Below are positions 1,367 to 5,573 of a DNA stretch of 5,573 nt, piece after piece. A program made the position numbers and the translations under genes. This DNA comes from Thermoplasmata archaeon (lineage in GTDB: Archaea; Thermoplasmatota; Thermoplasmata; WALJ01), in contig JALSOU010000009.1 of NCBI GenBank assembly GCA_026986305.1, positions 1-5,573 of the forward strand, written 5' to 3'. Under the pieces are notes generated by a model. That model did no database searches. It was not told the origin of the DNA and saw only the letters and a list, made by a program, of their open reading frames with translations. Positions within the stretch are counted from its first letter, which is position 1. Every line of letters begins with the position of its first letter.

Positions 1367-2470
1367 ATGGATAACATGAAACGCACACCCCTTTACGATG
1401 AACATGTGAAGCTAGGCGCAAAGATGACCGAGTTCGGCGGATGGGAGATGCCCCTTCTCTATGAAGGGATAGTTAAGGAACACATGGCGGTCCGCCAAAA
1501 AGCCGGGATTTTTGATGTTTCCCATATGGGAGACCTGTACATACATGGAAAGGATGCAGGAAATTTTTTGAGCAGAATGACCACGGGAGATTTCAACAAA
1601 TTGAAGGTGGGGAGCGCAAAATACGTTCATATACTCAACGAAGAAGGAAAGATAAAGGACGATGCCATAGGATACAGACTTTCAGAAGAAGAATACCTCT
1701 TTGTACCCAACGCAGGCCCGACACCGATGATTGAAGAATGGTTCAAATCCCACAGCGATGGCTTTGATGTGGAGATTGAAAATCACACAGATGACCTTGT
1801 GTGCATAGCTTTTCAGGGACCTGAGGCCAGAAAAATGCTGTCCAATATATCAAAAGATGCGTCTGAGACCAAGTTCTTTAAGATGAGGTGGGCGGACCTA
1901 GGACTTCAAAGAGAGGGCGCAGAGGGTTTTCTTTCATATTTTTCAGATAAAAGCCTGATTTCTGGCACTGGTTACACGGGGGAGGATGGGTTTGAGATAA
2001 TAACCCTTAGAAATCAGGGGATAGAGCTGTGGAAAAAGCTAATTGAAATGGGAGCAGTACCGTGCGGTTTGGGAGCGCGAGATACCCTTAGACTTGAAAA
2101 GGGTTTCCTTCTATCTGGGCAGGACTTTAACGAAGATCGCACCACTCTGGAAACAGGATGGGATTTTGTTATAGACTGGGATCACGATTTCATAGGAAAA
2201 GATGCACTGATGAAGCAGAAGGAAAGGGGAGATTATGACCTGTGGATGGGGCTAATTATGGAAAAAGGTATTGCCAGACACGGTTATGAAGTATATAAAG
2301 ATGGAGAAAAGATAGGTGTAGTCACCAGCGGAACGAAGTCTCCAGTACTTGGAAAAGGCATTGCGATGGCTTATTTAAAAAGGGAGTATGCAAAAAAAGG
2401 AGAGAAAGTACAGGTCGATGTCAGAGGAAAGCTTTACGATGCAGATGTTGTAAAGACGCCGTTCGTATAA
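1367..2470 (+). CDS. gcvT: Aminomethyltransferase, glycine cleavage system T protein
   Basis: Complete 367-residue GcvT, normal for the family. In the glycine cleavage system the T protein takes the aminomethyl group from lipoylated H protein and transfers the methylene unit to a tetrahydrofolate-type carrier, releasing ammonia; it is cytosolic. Visible family motifs are RTPLYDEHVKLGAKM near the N-terminus, GIFDVSHMG (47-55), the DDAIGYRL segment (98-105) holding the conserved pterin-site aspartate region, TGYTGEDGFEI (201-211), GLGARDTLRLEKG (234-246), HDFIGKDAL (273-281) and TSGTKSP (320-326). The frame stays open to a GTG at 1283, but that codon lies inside the palindrome and adds 28 residues unlike GcvT, so it was rejected. 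The ATG at 1376 is the main alternative to 1367, since many homologues begin near MKRTPLY. Neither start has a convincing Shine-Dalgarno. No gcvH or gcvP is in the window, so the partner subunits must be encoded elsewhere. It converges with the Roadblock gene, 8 bp apart. Confidence 0.95.
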   Translation: MDNMKRTPLYDEHVKLGAKMTEFGGWEMPLLYEGIVKEHMAVRQKAGIFDVSHMGDLYIHGKDAGNFLSRMTTGDFNKLKVGSAKYVHILNEEGKIKDDAIGYRLSEEEYLFVPNAGPTPMIEEWFKSHSDGFDVEIENHTDDLVCIAFQGPEARKMLSNISKDASETKFFKMRWADLGLQREGAEGFLSYFSDKSLISGTGYTGEDGFEIITLRNQGIELWKKLIEMGAVPCGLGARDTLRLEKGFLLSGQDFNEDRTTLETGWDFVIDWDHDFIGKDALMKQKERGDYDLWMGLIMEKGIARHGYEVYKDGEKIGVVTSGTKSPVLGKGIAMAYLKREYAKKGEKVQVDVRGKLYDADVVKTPFV

Positions 2471-2478
2471 TTATTCGG

Positions 2479-2820
2479 TTAAATCTCTTTTACAACCTCT
2501 TTCATATATTTCAATATCTCTTCCTCGTTTCTATCCGCCTTCACAGCGGCCACGAGGAGGCCTTTCATACCTGCTGATACTATAAATATCTTTATCTCTC
2601 CTGTTTCTACTATCACATGCTCTGGGTTTTTCTGTCCAAGCTCCGTTGCGGCGGTGCCCGCTGCACCCAGAACAGTGGCGCACATTATGCTGAATGTCTC
2701 AGGATATGCCCCCTCAGGAACCTCTATGTACTTTGGCATACCATCGCGAGTTATAAACCCCGCAGCGATTGTTTGGAAGTTCCTTTTAATATCAGAGATT
2801 ATGTTCTCTATTTTTTCCAT
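2479..2820 (-). CDS. Roadblock/LC7-domain protein
   Basis: Small 113-residue single-domain protein. The pattern is Roadblock/LC7: an N-terminal helix (1-15), a strand with GFITRDGMPK (21-30), a long central helix ETFSIMCATVLGAAGTAATELG-like (41-62, Ala/Gly-rich), then strands VIVETGEIKIFIV (69-81) and GLLVAAVKAD (87-96), and a final helix. Proteins of this fold (MglB, LC7, Ragulator-type) dimerise and regulate Ras-like small GTPases; no GTPase is visible here, so the partner is unknown. The start at 2820 is chosen because a GGAG Shine-Dalgarno (2830-2833) lies 9 nt upstream. The frame extends to 2910, but that adds 30 basic residues that overlap the preceding V4R gene and are not part of the fold. 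The start is 4 bp beyond the V4R stop codon, so the two are almost certainly co-transcribed and translationally linked. Domain assignment is good; biological role is open. Confidence 0.82.
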   Translation of the reverse strand: MEKIENIISDIKRNFQTIAAGFITRDGMPKYIEVPEGAYPETFSIMCATVLGAAGTAATELGQKNPEHVIVETGEIKIFIVSAGMKGLLVAAVKADRNEEEILKYMKEVVKEI

Positions 2821-2824
2821 TTTT

Positions 2825-3256
2825 TCACACTCCTTTTCTCTCAACCTTAAACATGCACCTCTCATCTCCTTTGCTTTCGCACTCCACCTCTTCACATGAA
2901 AAAGACTCATTGAAATAGCTCTCGTAAATGCTCTTTATTATTCCCTTTAAAATATGACATGTTGGCATGCCTTTTCCTTCTTCAACCTCTATGGAACCAT
3001 GAACAACCACAGAGTCCCCTGAAAACTCGGCTTTTTCCACCCATCCCCTTCCCGCTAGGAGATTTCCCACCACTTCAAAATATCGATCTTTATTACCTTC
3101 AGAGCTTTTCATGGCTATTTCTGCCATATTTCTGCCCAAAACCTCTCCCTCTCTGAAAAACAAACCATAACAGGCATATGACATGACGCTCTCGTAGATC
3201 TTTCTTATCTCAAGCAGCTCATCCTTTGATATTCTGATAGTTCTCATTGTCATCAA
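2825..3256 (-). CDS. V4R-domain protein (4-vinyl reductase / Bet3-like small-molecule-binding fold)
   Basis: Protein of 143 residues made of one V4R domain. Typical features are an N-terminal helical part with GLFFREGEVLGR (31-42), the motif PTCHILKGI (98-106), and the C-terminal signature CEEVECESKGDERCMFKV (121-138), where V4R proteins usually show C-x-(S/A)-x-G-(D/S)-x-x-C-x-F. Cysteines 121, 126 and 134 are clustered and could bind metal or respond to redox. V4R domains occur in BchJ and in the effector-sensing part of XylR/DmpR-type regulators, and are related to the TRAPP subunit Bet3. There is no DNA-binding or catalytic domain here, so it is probably a stand-alone sensor or scaffold. 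It is the first gene of an operon with the Roadblock protein 4 bp downstream. ATGs at 3256, 3253 and 3247 are all possible; TATA spacing fits 3253 or 3256 and implies a leaderless mRNA. An enzymatic vinyl-reductase role is unlikely without a chlorophyll pathway. Confidence 0.82.
   Translation of the reverse strand: MMTMRTIRISKDELLEIRKIYESVMSYACYGLFFREGEVLGRNMAEIAMKSSEGNKDRYFEVVGNLLAGRGWVEKAEFSGDSVVVHGSIEVEEGKGMPTCHILKGIIKSIYESYFNESFSCEEVECESKGDERCMFKVERKGV
2830..2833 (-). promoter_or_regulatory. Shine-Dalgarno site fixing the Roadblock start
   Basis: On the minus strand AAAGGAGTG precedes the ATG at 2820, with the GGAG core 9 nt away. It lies inside the end of the V4R coding region. This decides for the 113-residue product over the longer frame beginning at 2910, which would overlap V4R by 86 bp. 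Confidence 0.6.
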
Positions 3257-3274
3257 AGGCTATAGGGTTTCAAT

Positions 3275-3291
3275 GTTTATAAAGTTTCCTT
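3275..3291 (-). promoter_or_regulatory. TATA box and BRE of the V4R-Roadblock operon
   Basis: The minus strand reads AAGGAAA (BRE-like, 3285-3291) followed by CTTTATAAAC (3275-3284). The TATA centre near 3280 lies about 26 bp from the ATG at 3253, the usual archaeal TATA-to-start distance, so the transcript should begin at or within a few bases of the start codon. No Shine-Dalgarno is present, which agrees with leaderless translation. Confidence 0.65.
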
Positions 3292-3322
3292 AAATTTGAC
3301 TTTTTTGGCGTTTAAACTTTAT

Positions 3323-3434: not shown

Positions 3435-5090
3435 ATGTCCCAAAATAAAAGGACCGAAAACACAGAAAACATGCTAAAAAGACTGAAAATAGATGGGCTT
3501 AGTCCATTTGAGATAAAAGAAATACTTATAAAAGCAGCTAAGAGAAAATCAGAGAGAATGATGTTAAATGCGGGTAGAGGGAATCCTAATTTTATGGCCC
3601 TTATACCTCGCTATGCTTTTTTACAGCTTGGGAGATTTGCCCTTAGCGAGGCCGAGAGACATTTTGGCTACATGGGGTCTCTAATAGGAGGGCACAGCGA
3701 TAGAGAGGGCATAGAAGAGCGCTTTGAGATCTTTGTAAAAAACCACTGGAAAGAAGAAGGTACAGAATTTTTGAATGCTGCTGTTAGTTATGTTAAAGAC
3801 TATCTTGGTTTATCTGCAGGAGATTTTCTACATGAAATCGTACAAGGTTATCTTGGATGCGATTATCCTTCCCCTCCTAGAATGCTAAGTCACGGTGAGA
3901 AGATCGTTGTTAGATATTTGCTTAAAGAGATGGGAGCCAGCTACGATTTAGGATATGCCCTTGTTGACGACACGCAATTATTTGCTGTTGAAGGGGGTAC
4001 CGCGGCAATGGCGTATCTCTTCGAATCTTTAAAGGCAAATAGAATACTGAACAAGGGCGACAAAATAGCTCTTGTGGTACCTATATTCAGCCCCTATCTT
4101 GAAATACCTCATCTCGATAATTACGATCTTGAAATAATTGAAATACATTCTAAAGAGGAAAAAGGGTATCAGGTGCCTTATGAAGAGCTTGAAAAACTGG
4201 AAGATAGAGAGATAAAAGCCCTTTTCATGGTCAATCCAGGCAATCCAACAGCTGTAAAATGGAACGGGCAAACTCTCAAAAAATTGAGAGAAATTGTGAA
4301 AGAAAAAAGGAGAGACCTGATAATAATAACTGACGATGTGTATGCGACCTTTGCAGAGGATTTCAAATCCGTGTACACTGTGCTTCCTCACAACACCATA
4401 CTCGTGTATTCCTTTTCAAAGTATTTCGGAGCAACTGGTTGGCGCCTAGGAGTCATCGCTTTGCACAGGCGCAATGTGGTAGACCAATTGATAGAACATC
4501 ACCCTAGAGAAATACAGGAAGAACTACACAGGAGGTACGCTCCTATAACGACGAACACAAAAGAACTTAAGTTTATAGATAGACTTGTGGCAGATAGTAG
4601 AAATGTGGCCCTTAGACATACTGCCGGGCTGTCTACTCCTCAACAGGTGCAAATGGTTCTATTTGCTTTATATGCACTTATGGACGAAGAAGAAAAATAC
4701 AAAAATGCAGTAAAGCGTGTTTTAAAGCGCCGTTACATGGCATTACATCGTGGACTCGGCATACAACCAGAGAAAGATGAAAACTATGTATATTATTACA
4801 CTCTACTGGATACTGAGAAACTTGCAGAGCTGCTGTATGGAAAGGAATTTGCAGACTGGTTCGTTAAAGCCTTGCCTCCCGAAGATTTTGTCCTGCGCCT
4901 AGCCATGGAAGCAGGTGTGGTTCTTCTTCCTGGAAAAGGATTTGAAGTCTTCCATCCGTCTGCGAGAATATCTTTAGCAAACCTTAAGGAAATTGACTAC
5001 ATAAAAATAGGAAAAACCATAAGAAAAATGCTAAAAGAATATCATGAAAAATATTTAAATAATAAAAATAAAATTATATTAAACTTATAA
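3435..5090 (+). CDS. asdA: L-aspartate 4-decarboxylase (PLP-dependent, aminotransferase fold I)
   Basis: Full-length 551-residue AsdA/AspD, which converts L-aspartate to L-alanine plus CO2 and has side aspartate transaminase activity; bacterial homologues form large dodecamers and have about 530 residues. The N-terminal family signature is clear: LSPFEIK (22-28) and NAGRGNPNF (45-53), whose K28 and R48 match the Lys17 and Arg37 known as functionally important in the Pseudomonas enzyme. GCDYPSPPRM is at 141-150 and VEGGTAAMAY at 185-194. The aminotransferase core has NPGNPT (267-272, N270), TDDVY (299-303, D301, Y303), the Schiff-base lysine K329 in YSFSKYFGATGWRLG, the phosphate-binding R337, DRLVADSRNVAL (382-393), HTAGLSTPQQVQM (395-407) and the substrate carboxylate-binding R511. 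All key residues are present, so it is probably active. The C-terminal tail from about residue 540 is an AT-only extra stretch. TTA leucine codons are common (13) against one in gcvT. Bacterial homologues may sit beside the aspartate:alanine antiporter gene aspT; none is adjacent here. It converges with taw1. Confidence 0.95.
   Translation: MSQNKRTENTENMLKRLKIDGLSPFEIKEILIKAAKRKSERMMLNAGRGNPNFMALIPRYAFLQLGRFALSEAERHFGYMGSLIGGHSDREGIEERFEIFVKNHWKEEGTEFLNAAVSYVKDYLGLSAGDFLHEIVQGYLGCDYPSPPRMLSHGEKIVVRYLLKEMGASYDLGYALVDDTQLFAVEGGTAAMAYLFESLKANRILNKGDKIALVVPIFSPYLEIPHLDNYDLEIIEIHSKEEKGYQVPYEELEKLEDREIKALFMVNPGNPTAVKWNGQTLKKLREIVKEKRRDLIIITDDVYATFAEDFKSVYTVLPHNTILVYSFSKYFGATGWRLGVIALHRRNVVDQLIEHHPREIQEELHRRYAPITTNTKELKFIDRLVADSRNVALRHTAGLSTPQQVQMVLFALYALMDEEEKYKNAVKRVLKRRYMALHRGLGIQPEKDENYVYYYTLLDTEKLAELLYGKEFADWFVKALPPEDFVLRLAMEAGVVLLPGKGFEVFHPSARISLANLKEIDYIKIGKTIRKMLKEYHEKYLNNKNKIILNL
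5047..5074 (-). terminator. Likely T-rich transcription terminator for taw1
   Basis: Read on the minus strand, just past the taw1 stop codon, there are several T-runs (TTTTATTTTTATTATT and TATTTTT). Archaeal RNA polymerase terminates at such tracts without needing a hairpin. The tract coincides with the AT-only 3' end of the asdA coding sequence, so coding and termination roles overlap. This is inferred from composition alone. Confidence 0.4.
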
Positions 5091-5095
5091 AATTT

Positions 5096-5573
5096 TCACT
5101 TCTTTATCTTCGTCTCCTTTCCTTTCTCACTTATCAGAACAACCCTGCTGGGCCTGTACTCCATAACAAGCTCCCTTCCTGTGTACTCCGCAATCTTTTC
5201 TCCGAATTCCCTTATTTCCTCGTGGGAAGGCATGTTTGCCATGGTCATCCTCTCTCTGGAATAGCCTACAAAAACATAGCCTTTTGCTTCTATGAAATTA
5301 GGGTCCGCCTTTTCTATGAGCTTCGCATACTCCTTTTCATGCCCTTCCATGTTCCATCCCTTTACGAGGGTGTGTCTTATCACGGTCCTTGTGTCCAGAG
5401 ATGGCAGGAGTTCAAGGGTTTCGTTGAGCCTTTTCCATCCATCTGGAATCATGGGAACCAGAAGTCTGTCATATATCTCTGGGTTTGGAGCAGCCACGGT
5501 GATGTAAAGCTGTGTCGGCAAAGGGTCAAGGTTCTCTATGGCCTTTGGAAGCGTGCCGTTGCTTACCAGAAAT
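5096..5573 (-). CDS. taw1: 4-demethylwyosine synthase, C-terminal part (partial at right edge)
   Basis: The last 158 residues of a TYW1/Taw1 radical-SAM enzyme, which condenses N1-methylguanosine at position 37 of tRNA-Phe with pyruvate to form the tricyclic core of wyosine, stabilising the anticodon stem-loop. The frame is open past the apparent TTG at 5521 to the window edge, starting FLVSNGTLPKAIENLDPLPTQLY, which is internal family sequence, so no start lies in the window. Other recognisable family segments are YITVAAPNPEIY, TLELLPSL, RTVIRHTLVKGWNM, the ADPNFIEAKGYVFVGYSRER stretch, MANMPSHEEI and the terminal PSRVVLIS. The iron-sulfur CxxxCxxC motif and SAM-binding N-terminus lie beyond position 5573. 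The gene is found in Archaea and Eukaryota rather than Bacteria, which supports an archaeal origin for the window. Its stop codon is 5 bp from the asdA stop. Confidence 0.93.
   Translation of the reverse strand, partial: FLVSNGTLPKAIENLDPLPTQLYITVAAPNPEIYDRLLVPMIPDGWKRLNETLELLPSLDTRTVIRHTLVKGWNMEGHEKEYAKLIEKADPNFIEAKGYVFVGYSRERMTMANMPSHEEIREFGEKIAEYTGRELVMEYRPSRVVLISEKGKETKIKK

Follow-up and report, generated by a model that had tools for sequence, protein, structure and literature searches.

The DNA analysed in this study is a stretch of 5,573 nucleotides (nt) from a Thermoplasmata archaeon (contig JALSOU010000009.1), hereafter called the window, which carries on its minus strand two small adjoining genes, the first coding for a V4R protein and the second for a Roadblock/LC7 protein. 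Our study has revealed that the V4R-Roadblock gene link is well supported. In our tentative interpretation, to which we assign slightly less than an even chance, V4R and Roadblock likely assemble into a single complex, in which the binding partner of the Roadblock dimer would depend on the state of V4R, with the output encoded elsewhere and a Ras-like GTPase being unlikely as that output in general.

The phylum sample comprised 243 genomes, which were searched at a match threshold of E 1e-5 and gave V4R matches in 28 genomes and Roadblock matches in 35. The 14 genomes with the best V4R matches, belonging to the families labelled f1, f2, f4, f13 and f28, were all found to have the Roadblock gene directly downstream (14/14), and the named relative at locus L006 also carries the pair. 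The distance from the V4R stop to the longest Roadblock frame ranged from -86 to +28 nt at these 14 pair loci, the value of -86 belonging to the longest Roadblock frame of the window, for which the homologue-supported ATG gives 4 nt. Genomes G034 and G198 have short, diverged Roadblocks, and that of G034 falls under the Pfam cut-off. In family f2, where 81 genomes were searched, both domains were matched in 60, and in all 60 of these the two genes adjoin on the same strand with V4R first; the pair forms the sole V4R match and the sole Roadblock match of the genome in 46 of the 60. A further pair is present in G293 of this family, whose V4R contains unread bases and lies beside its Roadblock, which brings the f2 pair genomes to 61. 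The largest protein search returned 810 relatives, and the organism names, where given among the 120 matches listed, were of Thermoplasmata; the homologues were named Thermoplasmata archaeon or Candidatus Thermoplasmatota, and one match was named Geothermarchaeales. The single genome-contig scan returned 2 loci.

The flanking genes are kept within f2 and are different between the four families annotated, with gcvT and taw1 in f1, DUF7121 and a glycosyltransferase in f2, CBS and SDR in f4 and a PKD-repeat protein in f13. Clustering of neighbours by their longest frames gave misleading results where the G+C content is high, and a conservation-based comparison was used instead. As the flanks differ between families while the adjacency stays, it is the unit of two genes that is conserved. 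The adjacency is beyond chance, because it is kept in five families with differing flanks and joins sole matches in most of the f2 genomes having both domains. A sequence-only reading of the window had proposed a survey for conserved V4R-Roadblock adjacency, and the outcome is positive both in the phylum sample and in f2.

DUF7121 was considered as a third member and rejected; it stands on the same strand ahead of the pair in 21 of 23 f2 loci and did not turn up at pair loci outside f2. The 23 f2 loci are L068-L073, L075 and L148-L163. The genes for ribosomal L18e, L13 and S9 and for RNA polymerase subunit N lie nearby in L149, with PRC-barrel and glycosyltransferase genes in between. In L077 and L078 a same-strand gene is present before and after the pair (CBS, then SDR, in L077 and the same similarity clusters in L078).

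The features of the pair in the window are as follows.

2825..3253, minus strand: V4R protein (PF02830), 142 amino acids from the ATG at 3253 (140 amino acids from the ATG at 3247).

2479..2820, minus strand: Roadblock/LC7 protein (PF03259), 113 amino acids, with the Ile45 typical of pair-type Roadblocks.

2821..2835, minus strand: junction, with an AAGGAG ribosome-binding-like site in the V4R tail, the TGA stop and a 4-nt gap.

3273..3292, minus strand: promoter-like block TAAGGAAACTTTATAAACAT (B recognition element (BRE)/TATA-like), with the TATA centre about 27 nt before the ATG at 3253.

The two small single-domain genes were claimed by the sequence-only reading to lie 4 bp apart, and this holds, the V4R stop being at 2827-2825 and the Roadblock ATG at 2820. 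V4R scores 51.8 bits to PF02830 against a Pfam cut-off of 31 and Roadblock 27.8 bits to PF03259 against a cut-off of 23, so that profile support was obtained for both domains. The same reading had denied V4R a DNA-binding domain, in agreement with the Pfam scan, which gave a single V4R domain and no helix-turn-helix match. The V4R end was first given as 3256, where the codon is TTG; a start at the ATG at 3253 is favoured, because V4R homologues are mostly 142 amino acids long and the 20-nt promoter-like block is identical ahead of V4R in L006 and L007, the contig of L007 ending before the Roadblock gene could show. AAGGAG lies inside the last V4R codons, ahead of the Roadblock ATG. We infer a promoter in the block and a ribosome-binding site in AAGGAG. 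An aspartate 4-decarboxylase gene (3435-5090, plus strand) diverges upstream of the pair and gcvT (1367-2470, plus strand) converges downstream, and therefore no same-strand gene directly adjoins the pair in the window. The pair is thus a predicted two-gene operon; the earlier claim that it stands under one promoter fits this layout, the promoter function being a predicted one.

Besides these genes, the window contains an AAA_14-type ATPase at 6-1241 (411 amino acids, 36.3 bits) and, at 5096-5572, an open-ended C-terminal part of 4-demethylwyosine synthase (TYW1/Taw1). The aspartate 4-decarboxylase matched TIGR03801 with 721.7 bits, and in the neighbour comparison a related frame was found in one other locus only (L073).

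The Roadblocks of the pairs belong to a recognizable type. In a tree of 32 Roadblocks, a branch with support 96/88 separates the 14 pair members and three unlinked ones from the other 15; the three unlinked ones (L051, L054 and L058) were added after the first tree and the Ile45 column had been seen. The 18 non-pair Roadblocks of the tree were those with a fetched locus and a frame of <160 amino acids, so L066 was left out for its length and unfetched matches were unused. Ile45, which lies in the long helix, is present in 17/17 Roadblocks on the pair side and 0/15 others, and in 31/31 pair Roadblocks of the fetched loci. One of the 18 non-pair Roadblocks, L053 of G019, adjoins a V4R gene of another kind in reversed order. 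A clade of exactly the 14 pair Roadblocks was weakly rejected (approximately unbiased test, p 0.0425), and a clade of pair V4Rs against 6 others was not rejected (p 0.3). The V4R and Roadblock trees agree only partly, as one of them groups the window's genome (G000) with f4 and the other groups it with f2. Two further Roadblock genes are present in the window's genome, on contigs C134 and C219 (L087 and L091). The f4 pair Roadblocks at L077:9791-10099, L078:9839-10120 and L080:804-1079 are 91-102 amino acids long, with most of the N-terminal helix missing.

The structure model of V4R is confident and, on fold comparison, corresponds to a PoxR/MopR-type sensor domain, predicted to be closer to PoxR than to Bet3; the Roadblock model, also confident, is predicted by the same means to be a Roadblock domain. 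These assignments are drawn from models and fold comparison because PDB searches by sequence alone gave weak matches only; in the V4R comparison the Foldseek root-mean-square deviation values were large and the VIA-align rows were used instead. A zinc site is predicted in V4R at C97/E120/C123/C131 (140-amino-acid numbering). Profile alignment, gapless but weak (E 0.41-0.49), places these four on residues 155, 178, 181 and 189 of MopR, which we take to be its zinc ligands. They are invariant across 29 aligned V4R sequences, and the exact MopR zinc-site spacing was found in 31 of the 32 V4Rs taken from fetched loci (those of 23 among the 61 f2 pair genomes, plus nine more; the single miss contains unread bases) as compared with 1 of 6400 shuffles. 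The zinc ligands of DmpR, as named in its description (PMC7264223), are Cys151, Glu172, Cys177 and Cys185, with cysteine spacing of 26 and 8 as in the window V4R and the glutamate number off by two. Binding of zinc or a small molecule by V4R is putative, the zinc-ligand residues being conserved at the sequence level.

The customary view of Roadblock proteins is that they regulate Ras-like GTPases. A GTPase profile was built from 13 Ras-like GTPases of the phylum, and it gave matches in 8 of the 14 pair genomes of the phylum sample, with one of these among the seven f2 genomes (1/7). In f2 at large it matched in 6 of 81 genomes and was unmatched in 54 of the 60 genomes having both domains; with G293 included, it was unmatched in 55 of the 68 pair genomes tested, all 55 in f2. 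In six f2 pair genomes neither PF08477 nor PF00025 was matched, one scan scoring only 17 candidates per genome. The diverged GTPases of G034 and G198, which the alignment profile finds, escape PF00025, and the two Pfam profiles were rejected as GTPase tests. The sequence-only reading had also proposed a survey for linked MglA/Ras-like GTPase genes, and here the outcome is negative: no GTPase match lay near any pair, those of the phylum sample being on other contigs or >100 kb off on the pair's contig (G034, G198), and GTPase match and pair were on different contigs in all 6 f2 genomes having both. The linked GTPase gene that marks an MglA/MglB-type module was therefore not found. Of the Roadblock matches in the phylum, ten are no more than 2.5 kb away from one of the 50 GTPase-domain places compared, and none of the ten is in a pair; the eight of them present in the tree all stand opposite the pair-type side. 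The GTPase matches near these ten are in frames of about 380-500 amino acids, among which only the fusion of G030 was scanned. Since most f2 genomes keep the pair without a GTPase match, a Ras-like GTPase is unlikely as the general output. In f2 the pair would so be kept without need for a Ras-like GTPase, unless a diverged one escapes the profiles, and a Ras-like GTPase may serve as the output where it is present, as in the window's genome.

Genes for V4R, Roadblock and P-loop NTPases are repeatedly found together across the phylum, and for this reason an NTPase is kept as the likely output. V4R, KaiC, KaiC-GTPase fusion and Roadblock genes stand in a row in G030; V4R is followed by KaiC in G035 and, by similarity clustering, likewise in G041; and on contig C85 of G035 the genes follow one another in the order GTPase, V4R-DUF835, V4R, Roadblock. 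Moreover, G019 has a Roadblock, a V4R and a 390-amino-acid protein with a GTPase-domain match, and at L098 and L103-L108 a Ras-like GTPase gene is directly followed by that of a V4R-like protein of 320-394 amino acids. Such V4R-like proteins next to GTPases, which occur in several genomes, have a C-terminal DUF835 in 5/5 scanned, three of the five being under the Pfam V4R cut-off. A KaiC-family ATPase is regarded as the most likely alternative output because other genomes of the phylum have stretches on which genes for V4R, Roadblock and KaiC occur together. The fusion of G030 (L086:1593-2729) has 378 amino acids, with a KaiC-type ATPase (66.4 bits) and an Arf/Ras-like GTPase domain (PF00025, 53.7 bits), and adjoins the Roadblock gene. 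The C134 Roadblock of the window's genome is on the same contig as a second V4R and a KaiC gene.

The preferred reading of a V4R-Roadblock complex would work as follows. V4R would be a zinc-stabilised dimer holding a small hydrophobic or aromatic ligand, as PoxR, MopR and DmpR do, or reading the thiol redox state, as MsvR does, and Roadblock would be a homodimer like MglB. The two proteins would bind each other and the signal would be passed by direct contact, upon which the Roadblock dimer may gain or lose a partner; the output could be a P-loop NTPase or another partner encoded elsewhere. Several observations weigh against it. Six of the 20 V4R matches with E <1e-20 have no Roadblock directly adjoining (two of the six are second copies in genomes with a pair), G113 has a pair-type Roadblock and no V4R match, and G035 and G041 have V4R and Roadblock on different contigs. 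A Ras-like GTPase is present in 7/7 pair genomes outside f2, the window's own included (126.4 bits to PF00071), and all 6 f2 genomes with a GTPase match carry the pair; the GTPase-free state is shown in this one family only, and the profiles would overlook a GTPase that has diverged too far. Further, none of the V4R-Roadblock pairs was found to have a KaiC gene alongside, and KaiC presence was rejected as support for a KaiC output, as matches occur in 14/14 pair genomes and also in 14/14 control genomes.

The GTPase findings outside f2 bear on classic GTPase control, in which an unlinked Ras-like GTPase would have the Roadblock dimer as its GTPase-activating protein (GAP), guanine nucleotide exchange factor (GEF) or scaffold, in the way that MglA has MglB, with V4R adding ligand dependence. 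On account of the Ras-like GTPase present in each of the pair genomes tested outside f2, this explanation has been weighted up and the preferred reading down; we judge it unlikely, though with real weight, in view of the f2 pair genomes lacking a profile match, the distance of GTPase matches from every pair and the position in the tree of the eight GTPase-near Roadblocks. The distant GTPase, named by the sequence-only reading as one possible target, is present as an unlinked gene in the pair genomes tested outside f2 and has no profile match in most f2 pair genomes. The cysteines of V4R could instead serve a redox switch, sensing the redox state of thiols in the manner of MsvR, a regulator of methanogens, and relaying it to Roadblock. 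Substitution of C206, C232 and C240 of MaMsvR alters DNA binding, and their spacing of 26 and 8 equals that of C97/C123/C131 (PMC3729527 for the MaMsvR cysteines); MsvR is also the sole NCBIfam match of V4R at E up to 0.1, at 35.7 bits far under the cut-off of 220. But the cysteines and glutamate match the zinc site of the ligand-binding MopR/DmpR and may be purely structural, and V4R lacks a DNA-binding domain, so this switch appears quite improbable. It is very improbable, in our estimate, that V4R stores or carries a ligand and is co-expressed with a Roadblock scaffold that it does not contact. The physical interaction is putative and the partners are separable in G113, G035 and G041, but the adjacency is family-wide and the two domains are jointly absent from 10 of the 81 f2 genomes. 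The four f2 genomes with a Roadblock and no V4R match (4/81) are accounted for by a contig edge in two (G254, G262), by unread bases within the V4R in one (G293) and by a Roadblock not of the pair type in one (G305). The joint-absence argument is weakened by 7 of the 81 f2 genomes having V4R and no Roadblock, of which the one inspected scored low on the pair-type profile (25.4 bits).

A bolder form of the proposal, which we consider doubtful, is a GTPase-less, ligand-gated Roadblock switch, in which the sensing core would consist of V4R and Roadblock and nothing else. The two would be an ancient assembly of the V4R-plus-Roadblock/longin type, comparable to a TRAPP reduced to its essentials, and would need no small GTPase in the greater part of one archaeal family. 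If true, the occurrence of the pair in genomes where no Ras-like GTPase was found would split Roadblock function from GTPases, and would provide a two-protein system for testing the origin of TRAPP-like assemblies; both proteins are small and their expression should be easy. The gene pair is not described in the accessible portions of the literature searched, mostly outside subscription journals (PMC2253512, PMC10933270, PMC5847659, PMC3149612, PMC7264223, PMC4858521, PMC3729527). The TRAPP/GTPase-control-like module of the sequence-only reading is partly supported: the gene link is well supported, whereas the GTPase half is not general and the Bet3 profile was unmatched, the Pfam scan of the V4R protein at E up to 0.1 giving V4R only.

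In comparison to known systems, PoxR, MopR and DmpR carry V4R within sigma-54 activators, whereas the window V4R is a single-domain protein of 140-142 amino acids without AAA+ or DNA-binding part. MsvR, the methanogen redox regulator with a C-terminal V4R, shares the spacing of the three cysteines with the window V4R, which lacks a helix-turn-helix match and stays below the NCBIfam equivalog cut-off. In case of the TRAPP core (Bet3-like plus longin), V4R is considered the likely Bet3 ancestor in one study (PMC2253512); the window V4R is predicted to be nearer to PoxR than to Bet3, and the second protein of the pair is a Roadblock by Pfam. In the Asgard archaeon MK-D1, small GTPase genes are generally not in operons with TRAPPC3/Roadblock-type regulators, as reported in one study (PMC10933270). 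Unlike MglB with MglA, the window Roadblock is partnered in the genome with V4R and not with a GTPase, and 55 of the 68 pair genomes tested, all in f2, gave no match to a Ras-like GTPase.
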